The notes under the pieces: model-generated
What the model was told of the DNA's origin: nothing
The model's database searches: none
Seen by the model: the letters and a program-made list of their open reading frames with translations, nothing else
In this document: in pieces, positions 1,282-21,358 of the stretch
Numbering within the stretch: the first letter of the stretch is position 1
Layout: the number at the start of each line of letters is the position of its first letter
Made by a program: the position numbers and the translations under genes
From: Opitutia bacterium
GTDB taxonomy: Bacteria > Verrucomicrobiota > Verrucomicrobiia > Opitutales > Opitutaceae
Length of the DNA stretch: 64,000 nucleotides
Assembly (NCBI GenBank): GCA_947453695.1
Contig: CANGHW010000009.1
Span: forward strand, 1-64,000
Direction: 5' to 3'

Positions 1282-1316
1282 AAAAAAAAGCCCCTCCGGT
1301 TTGGCACCGGAGGGGC
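1282..1316 (-). terminator. intrinsic terminator on the minus strand, attenuator-like
   Basis: Read on the minus strand, GCCCCTCCGGT and ACCGGAGGGGC form a perfect 11-bp stem with a 5-nt loop, followed by eight U. It begins 18 nt after the stop of the Val/Ser-rich leader ORF. No minus-strand structural gene follows before the window edge; only a doubtful 63-codon ORF (1045-1236) lies downstream. The rest of 969-1611 shows no other gene. Confidence 0.75.
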
Positions 1317-1333
1317 TAAAGTCGTGTGACGTT

Positions 1334-1453
1334 TTAGAACCCTCGCGGCGCCGAAGTAACGGCGGATACGGAGACAGATACGGATACGACGGAGGCTACG
1401 ACCACGGAGGAGTGGGCGAGAGCGAGCGAGAGCGTCGTGCCAGCAAGGTTCAT
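1334..1453 (-). CDS. putative Val/Ser-rich leader peptide, 39 aa, orphan attenuator
   Basis: On the minus strand an ATG at 1453 opens a 39-codon ORF ending TAA at 1334. Residues 17-32 read VVVASVVSVSVSVSAV: nine Val and six... five Ser codons are packed into 16 positions, with several Leu before them. A strong terminator follows 18 nt after the stop. Short ORF, clustered codons for one amino-acid family, then terminator is the layout of ilv-type transcription attenuators. Against this: no clear Shine-Dalgarno, no obvious antiterminator pairing found by eye, short GTATCC-like repeats that could give Val-Ser by chance, and no branched-chain gene downstream. Confidence 0.4.
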   Translation of the reverse strand: MNLAGTTLSLALAHSSVVVASVVSVSVSVSAVTSAPRGF

Positions 1454-19167: not shown

Positions 19168-21015
19168 ATGGCCCAAGCTTACACCGAAGCATCGATCAAA
19201 ACCCTGTCCTCGCTCGAGCACATCCGCCTGCGCCCCGGCATGTATATCGGACGCCTTGGCAACGGCACTCACGCTGAGGATGGCATCTACGTGCTACTCA
19301 AAGAGACGATCGATAACTGCATCGACGAATTCACCATGGGCCACGGCAAGAAGGTTGAAGTTGAGCTGAATGAGCGGACCTTGCGCGTGCGCGACTACGG
19401 TCGCGGCATCCCGCTCGGTAAACTTATCGACTGCGTCTCGATCATCAACACGGGCGCGAAATACGACAGCGAGACCTTCCAGAAATCCGTCGGCCTGAAC
19501 GGCGTCGGCCAGAAAGCGGTGAACGCGCTCGCTTTCGAGTATCGTGCCCAGGCGTTTCGCGAAGGGCAGACGAAGCTCGTGGAATTCTCCCAGGGTAGGC
19601 TCAAGAAAGAGCATAAGATCGTGAAGAGCGACGAGCGGCAGGGCACGCTGATCGAGTTTACGCCGGACGAGGCGCTCTTCGGGAAAGACTTCAAGTTCCG
19701 CTTGGAGTTCATCGAGGACATGCTCTGGAACTACGCGTTCTTGAATCGCGGGCTGACGCTCACGCTTAACGGAAAGTCGTTTCGGTCGGAAAATGGACTG
19801 AAGGACCTGCTCCAAAAAAACCTCAGCGGCGAGCCGCTCTACCCGATCATCCACCTCGAAGGGGAGGACATCGAGGTGGCGTTCACGCACGGTGCCCACT
19901 ACGGCGAGGAGTATTACTCGTTCGTCAACGGCCAGCACACGACGATGGGGGGGACGCATCTCGCGGCGTTTCGCGAAGCGCTCACCGACACGCTGCGCAA
20001 TTTCTTCAAGAAGGATTACGACGCGGCGGATATCCGCCAGTCGATTGACGCGGCCGTGGCGGTGCGCGTGATGGAGCCGGTCTTCGAGTCGCAGACGAAG
20101 ACGAAGCTTGGTTCCACCAACGTTGGCCCCGGTGGTCCGACGTTGAAGGAGTTTGTGGGCAAATTCATCCAGCAGTCCCTCGACGTTTATCTCCACAAGA
20201 ACAAGGAGACGGCGGAGGCGTTGAAGCGGAAGATCGAGGAAAGCGAACTCGAGCGCAAAGAACTCGCCGGCATCCGCGGTCTGGCCCGCGACCGCGCGAA
20301 GAAGGCCTCACTGCACAACAAGAAACTCCGCGACTGCCGCCTCCACCTGGGAGACAAGAATCCACGCGCCGAAGAGAGCACGATCTTCATCGTCGAAGGT
20401 GACTCGGCGGCGGGATCCCTGACCGCGACACGTGACGTGCAGACGCAGGCGGTCTTCGCACTGAAAGGCAAACCGCTCAACACCTATGGGCTTTCGAAGA
20501 AAGTGATCTACGAGAACGAGGAGTTTCATCTCCTGCAGTCGGCGCTCAACGTCGAGGAGGGCATGGATGGTCTACGCTATAACAAGATCGTGATCGCGAC
20601 CGATGCTGACGTGGACGGGATGCACATCCGCCTGCTGCTGATCTCGTTTTTTCTGCAATTCTTTCCGGACCTGATCCGCAACGGCCATGTGTTCATCCTC
20701 GAGACGCCGCTCTTCCGCGTGCGCAACAAGAAGAAAACCATTTATTGCTACAACGAGACCGAAAAGCAGACGGCGATTGTCGAGCTCGGTGCGAGCCACG
20801 AGATCACGCGATTCAAGGGACTCGGCGAAATATCGGCGGGCGAGTTCAAGGACTTCATCGGCGAAAACATCCGCCTGGAGCCCGTGAGCCTGAACCACCT
20901 CCACAATAGCGACGAGCTTCTGAGCTTCTTCATGGGGAAGAACACCCCGGAGCGGCAGGATTTCATCATCTGGAATCTGAAGATTGAGAAGGACCTAGTG
21001 GAGGTCGGCGACTGA
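19168..21015 (+). CDS. parE: DNA topoisomerase IV subunit B (ParE)
   Basis: 615 aa, the usual ParE length. The GHKL ATPase domain begins [12 protein letters not shown] and has [18 protein letters not shown] and [11 protein letters not shown]; the lid is [13 protein letters not shown]. The transducer domain contains [13 protein letters not shown]. The TOPRIM domain has EGDSAAG (Glu410) and DADVDG (Asp479/481/483), then [15 protein letters not shown] use ATG 19168, as upstream codons lie in the convergent gene. ParE decatenates chromosomes with ParC; no parC is adjacent, unlike in many bacteria, so the partner must lie elsewhere. It could be called gyrB-like, but the length without the GyrB insert and the motif spacing fit ParE. 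Confidence 0.92.
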
Positions 21016-21038
21016 CCTGCGGACGGGATACTCATTTT

Positions 21039-21358
21039 CCGTGGGTGATGCGTTGCGGCGGAAGCATCGCTCTGGAGATCCCCTGCCGCGTGACTTCTAA
21101 AGAGCGCGTGCAGGCCGGCCGGCCGACGGGTTTCTCTGCGTCGATCAGCGATCGTCCAGGCAGACTCGCGCGTTTGTGCCGAGTGTTTTCCGATTTAGGC
21201 GTGAGCATCAAGGACATCGCTCACGACCGCACCTTCAGCGGTCCCGATGTGAGCGCGGTGCCCGCCCTCTCCAAGGTGGAAGCGAACGACTAGCGGCACA
21301 TCGCGGACCGTAACTGGGCGTTCAAGTTGAGGACTTTTCGCCGAACGCCTATTGAGTG
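21039..21358 (+). pseudogene. decayed threonine dehydratase C-terminus (ACT domain remnant)
   Basis: Reading the + frame from 21042 gives VMRCGGSIALEIPCRV, then SASISDRPGRLARLCRVF, GVSIKDIAHDRTFSGPDVSA and VEAND. This matches the end of catabolic-type threonine dehydratases: the CGGNID strand, then the ACT domain with ISDRPGGLA and SIKDI.HDR.FSGPDVS. A TAG at 21291 interrupts the frame, and RHIADRNWAF continues the family pattern after it until TGA at 21357. The whole PLP catalytic domain is missing upstream, where parE ends. Recognition is by motif; an alignment would settle it. Confidence 0.75.

Follow-up and report, generated by a model that had tools for sequence, protein, structure and literature searches.

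A conserved leader and predicted valine attenuator ahead of a small protein gene in Opitutaceae

Leader-peptide attenuators ahead of ilvB are well known. In E. coli ivbL-ilvBN, a Val-rich leader peptide, a terminator, and an antiterminator precede the AHAS I operon. The unit described here lies on the minus strand of the window, by which we mean the whole 64,000-nt stretch of DNA that was analyzed, and by analogy it resembles ivbL-ilvBN: it has a Val-rich leader, a terminator, and a putative antiterminator, and homologous leaders in relatives (class A, defined below) head the AHAS I operon. It differs in that its target would be a 63-aa ORF and in that its leader mixes Val with Ser.

Other described systems share parts of this arrangement. 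In the accessible portion of one paper (PMC10272879), the ilvB-II, ilvB-OMG, and ilvB RNA motifs, from Corynebacterium, various phyla, and Leptospira, are attenuators before ilvB whose leader peptides, like that of the window, are rich in branched-chain codons; unlike the window unit, none of them is placed before a small ORF in that portion. The ilvB leaders of Actinobacteria (PMC1262725) likewise combine short ORFs containing Ile, Val, or Leu codons with a terminator before ilvB, but in those leaders codon runs and terminator overlap and the mode of action is unclear, whereas the window unit has a supported antiterminator. A further likeness is to peTrpL of Sinorhizobium (PMC7298713), where an attenuator yields a small product with its own job; there the leader peptide itself acts, whereas in the window unit it is a separate small gene downstream that is conserved. 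Within the accessible open literature, we found nothing relevant under Verrucomicrobiota or Opitutus combined with leader peptides and attenuation, and no described attenuator with a stand-alone microprotein gene as its conserved target.

The leader, its terminator, and their recurrence in relatives

The original prediction placed a 39-codon Val/Ser-rich ORF, a stem, and eight T on the minus strand, and this layout was confirmed at 1453-1282:

1453-1334, minus strand: leader peptide ORF of 39 codons, with a peptide pattern conserved in relatives
1411-1358, minus strand: Val/Ser control codons (codons 15-32) within the leader ORF
1317-1282, minus strand: intrinsic terminator with a 12-bp stem and 8 T (hairpin 1317-1289, T run 1289-1282)

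The peptide, MNLAGTTLSLALAHSSVVVASVVSVSVSVSAVTSAPRGF, contains 9 Val and 9 Ser and has the C-terminal end SAPRGF; a 6-nt repeat lies inside the ORF, which stops with TAA at 1336-1334 (minus strand). This short ORF thus carries codons for the residue presumed to be sensed, and the intrinsic terminator stands right behind it. The stem had been predicted to have 11 bp and to begin 18 nt after the stop. Eleven pairs are indeed obtained when the stem is begun at 1316, but the outer A-T brings the count to 12, and the distance from stop to hairpin is 17-18 nt. A generic terminator scan over 5 kb returned 5 sites vs. 4.3 in shuffles; since terminator-like sites are nearly as frequent in shuffled sequence, the hairpin by itself is little proof. 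Assignment of the leader to a known RNA family was rejected because no Rfam match reached the gathering score in the window, and 13 loci had sub-threshold matches only.

A DNA search with the leader produced matches in 86 of 150 same-family genomes (E ≤ 0.01), the short weak ones of which may be due to chance. The strongest matches cover the whole leader at 70-80% identity, and strong matches were present in all six other same-genus genomes of this sample. A covariance model detected the leader in 131 of 200 family genomes (E ≤ 0.01), representing 38 of 49 genera, and in eight of the nine sampled genomes of the window's genus (the window's own counted). In a class-wide sample of 236 genomes, the leader (E ≤ 1e-5) turned up in 15: 14 from the same family, and one weak outsider (7.2e-6). 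Leader-bearing contigs are mostly labeled as Opitutaceae/Opitutae, for example, Cephaloticoccus, Rariglobus, and strain IMCC26134. The sequences of the leader tail and terminator are strikingly constant among relatives, and in 100 aligned relatives, the terminator pairing holds in 99.4% of 994 cells, with six pairs changed on both sides. Given this recurrence in family genomes, the leader-terminator arrangement is confirmed, at the level of sequence, as genuine and beyond chance.

Two leader classes and the amino acid probably sensed

We took a census of the downstream genes at 120 covariance-model places with E ≤ 2.1e-5. The leader precedes ilvB of the AHAS I type at 29 of these (class A) and a small ORF at 85 (class B, which includes the window and spans 24 genera). 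Because one covariance model finds both, the two classes are homologous. The remaining six places (L126, L131, L136, L133, L142, and L143) do not enter the counts of either class; two of them, L142 and L143, are chance matches. The ilvB-type loci include L057, which is truncated and was assigned by its leader, and L137, which has no called peptide, so that residue composition was computed on 28 loci; three class-B loci run off their contigs, and statements on the small ORF refer to the other 82. Of the 28 class-A loci examined, 25 have an ilvN-like ORF right after ilvB, and the two frequently share 8 nt. The original prediction had read the layout as a branched-chain attenuator and had proposed a search for the same leader before ilv genes; that reading is borne out by the homologous leaders preceding ilvB-ilvN in relatives, the search having yielded 29 ilvB loci and one ilvN locus among the 120.

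The single ilvN locus, L133 (G004:C1:2404520-2408619), has a Val-rich leader and terminator directly before ilvN alone (an IlvN-type small subunit, NCBIfam PRK08178) rather than before ilvB. At L126, L131, and L136 (3 of 120), an MFS transporter gene comes after a leader-like Val-rich ORF and its related terminator; it may be yet another target, the third, of this family of attenuators. Both leader classes occur together in three of 200 genomes by script and in a fourth by eye (G125, G029, and G034; G194). The two classes might be complementary in their distribution, but this is suggestive only (Fisher p 8e-5, with kinship ignored and sub-cut-off matches not counted).

Val is the commonest residue in the leaders of both classes. 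Class-A leaders contain 29% Val and 9.5% Ser, with Val runs of 3-8 (for example, LALVVVVVVVVALGRAPRGF); in class-B leaders, Val makes up 24% and Ser 20%, and the Val runs are only 2-4 residues long. In our reading, valine is probably the amino acid sensed; in class-A relatives, the genes behind the leader, ilvB-ilvN, are genes for that amino acid, and in the window, the gene controlled would be the 63-aa ORF. Since the Val runs of class B are short and Ser nearly equals Val there, valine may not be the sole signal, and a joint Val/Ser signal may operate.

The antiterminator and the proposed switch

The original prediction had suggested folding the leader in search of an antiterminator, and a pairing supported by covariation was found between two segments:

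1352-1340, minus strand: antiterminator 5′ arm GGCGCCGCGAGGG, in the last leader codons, pairing with 1315-1303
1315-1303, minus strand: shared arm CCCCTCCGGTGCC, serving as the antiterminator 3′ arm and as the terminator 5′ arm plus loop

The alignment used (A6), which covers 100 of the 120 loci, took the terminator and not the antiterminator pairing as its guide. The pairing nevertheless holds in 94.6% of 987 cells, as against 29-72% for slid versions of it, and covariation was seen in 13 cells, with five pairs changed on both sides, a level reached by 0 of 500 shuffles. When the window sequence was folded with the ribosome held at V17-V29, the antiterminator formed (-28.5 to -29.1 kcal/mol); moving the ribosome to V32 left only a partial fold (-12.4 kcal/mol), and with the ribosome at the leader stop, the terminator formed (-26.9 kcal/mol). 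A control with shuffled leaders did not discriminate, as 378 of 565 shuffles also gave at least seven pairs, and the case for the antiterminator therefore rests on covariation. The alternative pairing shown by these comparisons is exclusive with the terminator and, in the predicted folds, is free on stalling and masked when the ribosome is at the stop.

We put the probability at roughly 0.8 that the unit is a ribosome-mediated attenuator that senses charged tRNA-Val, and possibly tRNA-Ser too, and controls the 63-aa microprotein gene. When valine is plentiful, the ribosome would reach the leader stop and mask the arm at 1352-1340, the terminator hairpin at 1317-1289 would form, and transcription would end. 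When valine is scarce, the ribosome would stall in codons 17-29, leaving this arm to pair with 1315-1303 once the latter is made; with the terminator blocked, RNA polymerase would continue into the small ORF at 1236-1045, and the protein would be made. From its distribution, the leader appears to be a family-wide valine attenuator working like ivbL-ilvBN.

A further conserved element lies upstream of the leader:

1493-1488, minus strand: TTGACA, candidate -35 box, 40 nt 5′ of the leader ATG

TTGACA (at least a 5/6 match) occurs within 60 nt 5′ of 110 of 114 leaders (a set with L133 in and L137 out) vs. 16 of 114 in the adjoining 60 nt upstream, and its distance to the ATG has a mode of 41 nt. 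In the window, a 17-nt spacer leads from TTGACA to a poor -10 candidate, TTTGTC (1470-1465, minus strand), and no -10 box was recognizable at the expected place, either in 1493-1454 or in the leader loci generally. This combination of a conserved TTGACA and no consensus -10 points to a promoter of unusual type and to an mRNA that is almost leaderless. From the position of TTGACA, we infer a transcription start near the leader ATG, and the leader ORF would be nearly leaderless if the candidate -35 box is right.

The small gene and its possible role

Two features lie beyond the terminator:

1236-1045, minus strand: 63-aa ORF, the predicted controlled small gene, starting 53 nt past the terminator G-C core
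1197-1162, minus strand: core of the small protein, conserved; HEFLVLCARPEM in the window, HDFLVLNxRPDL among relatives

The first reading had lacked this ORF, the antiterminator, and TTGACA at 1493-1488. It was right that no known biosynthetic enzyme follows the leader in the window, but the term "orphan" does not apply, since the leader is succeeded by a conserved small gene, the arrangement found at 85 of the 120 places in the family. Each of the 82 class-B loci whose ORF is complete has a small ORF behind the leader; it starts 46-85 nt (median 58) beyond the terminator and measures 59-111 aa (median 69). All 82 contain [HN]D[FLM]L or a close variant of it, often within HDFLVLNxRPDLT; the window's small protein is diverged and reads HEFLV at the motif. 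The codons of the motif vary synonymously among relatives, and pooled pN/pS is 0.47 vs. 1.10 and 1.56 in shifted frames of the same alignments (same-genus pairs with at least 55% identity and at least 45 codons, a filter that the window's pairs with genus-mates failed). Together, these results show that the small ORF is protein-coding and under purifying selection in relatives. At 1004-1046 of the window, a hairpin that closes a plus-strand GFO/IDH/MocA gene abuts the small-ORF stop, with a T run in the plus direction only.

A profile built from 32 members found the small ORF in all six positive-control genomes (E ≤ 4.5e-5), and its best E in 39 genomes lacking a class-B leader was only 0.0016. 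An existence of the small ORF apart from the leader was rejected, as the profile finds it solely in class-B-leader genomes. The small protein has no NCBIfam family and no PDB relative, and Pfam gave one weak, chance-like Tymovirus match (E 0.0096) in 1 of the 32 members; on these searches, the idea that the ORF is a piece of a known protein was rejected. The AlphaFold2 model of the small protein (pLDDT 67, pTM 0.18) has no helix of four residues and no strand of three. Our guess would be that the protein is disordered, works through a short motif, and serves the metabolism of branched-chain amino acids, since sister species have this attenuator in front of ilvBN and, in other species, an aminotransferase gene comes after this ORF.

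This aminotransferase gene lies directly 3′ of the small ORF at 14 of 82 loci, in 6 of 24 genera (g8, g28, g29, g34, g35, and g41), and where examined, the small-ORF stop and the aminotransferase start overlap (ATGA or GTGA) or nearly touch. The nearest solved relatives of the enzyme include multiple-substrate and 2-aminoadipate aminotransferases, and a role in making valine is possible. The close contact of the two genes lends something to the view that the window's leader and small ORF are a stranded relic of a leader-small ORF-aminotransferase operon that lost its enzyme, as does the fact that, in all 11 sampled stand-alone class-B genomes (the window's counted), the best match to the aminotransferase has at most 35% identity. 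Three ilvB-class genomes carry a copy elsewhere, with 48-53% identity, and no such leader was seen in the stretches upstream of these three copies. We nevertheless consider a relic unlikely, and the "stranded" regulator of the original prediction a poor fit: the stand-alone unit persists throughout the genus (in eight of nine genomes) and in the majority of the 24 genera of class B, and selection on the small ORF is purifying. In a tree of the housekeeping AHAS, the window falls within 19 sampled genomes that have no aminotransferase here; the tree leaves loss vs. gain unpolarized and gives no sign that the aminotransferase came first. The original prediction also pointed to a threonine dehydratase relic at 21 kb. 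The fragment there is real, an ACT-domain piece (Pfam ACT, E 2e-6) at 20988-21293 on the plus strand, in a frame that lacks the gene belonging to it, and it is compatible with a relic of threonine dehydratase or of another ACT protein, but nothing ties it to the leader locus.

It is more improbable still that the terminated short transcript is the product, acting in trans as a leader RNA or leader peptide, with the small ORF secondary. Precedent exists for leader peptides working in trans (PMC7298713), and the constancy of the tail and terminator would fit; however, the two roles of the shared arm account for this constancy, all 82 class-B loci that stay within their contigs have the small ORF, which evolves under coding constraint, and the Rfam matches described above stay below the gathering score. 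For the small RNA raised by the original prediction, no evidence was found. Finally, the 6-nt repeat and the terminator-like sites common in the region might evoke a low-complexity repeat read as a peptide beside an unrelated terminator, but scores of genomes in which the leader peptide, the spacing, the antiterminator, and the ORF beyond them are conserved refute such chance for practical purposes.

We return to the attenuator controlling the small gene and to what it may serve. An AHAS search at E 1e-120 found exactly one gene in 28 of 31 class-B genomes and none in the other three at that cut-off. A Val-rich ORF upstream of the housekeeping ilvB was found in 0 of 29 cases (the 28 class-B genomes plus the window's own), and a hairpin, at -187, was found upstream of 1 of the 29. 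That class-B species attenuate the housekeeping ilvB instead was rejected on the 0 of 29 with an upstream Val-rich ORF. Judged from these upstream regions, the small gene appears to be under the attenuator and the housekeeping AHAS not under one. We tentatively raise the possibility, itself rather doubtful, that an enzyme-operon attenuator was re-used in a large part of the family, with a disordered microprotein made on valine (or valine/serine) starvation acting in trans through HDFLVLNxRPDL on branched-chain enzymes or regulators. If this is true, a starvation-induced peptide regulator would replace direct attenuation of ilvBN.

The loci comprise a large comparative set of predicted valine attenuators in Verrucomicrobiota, in which one attenuator would serve differing targets within one family: ilvBN, ilvN, a microprotein, and a microprotein with an aminotransferase. 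They would also tie a microprotein family to a known metabolic signal, and an anonymous 63-aa ORF thereby becomes a testable gene.
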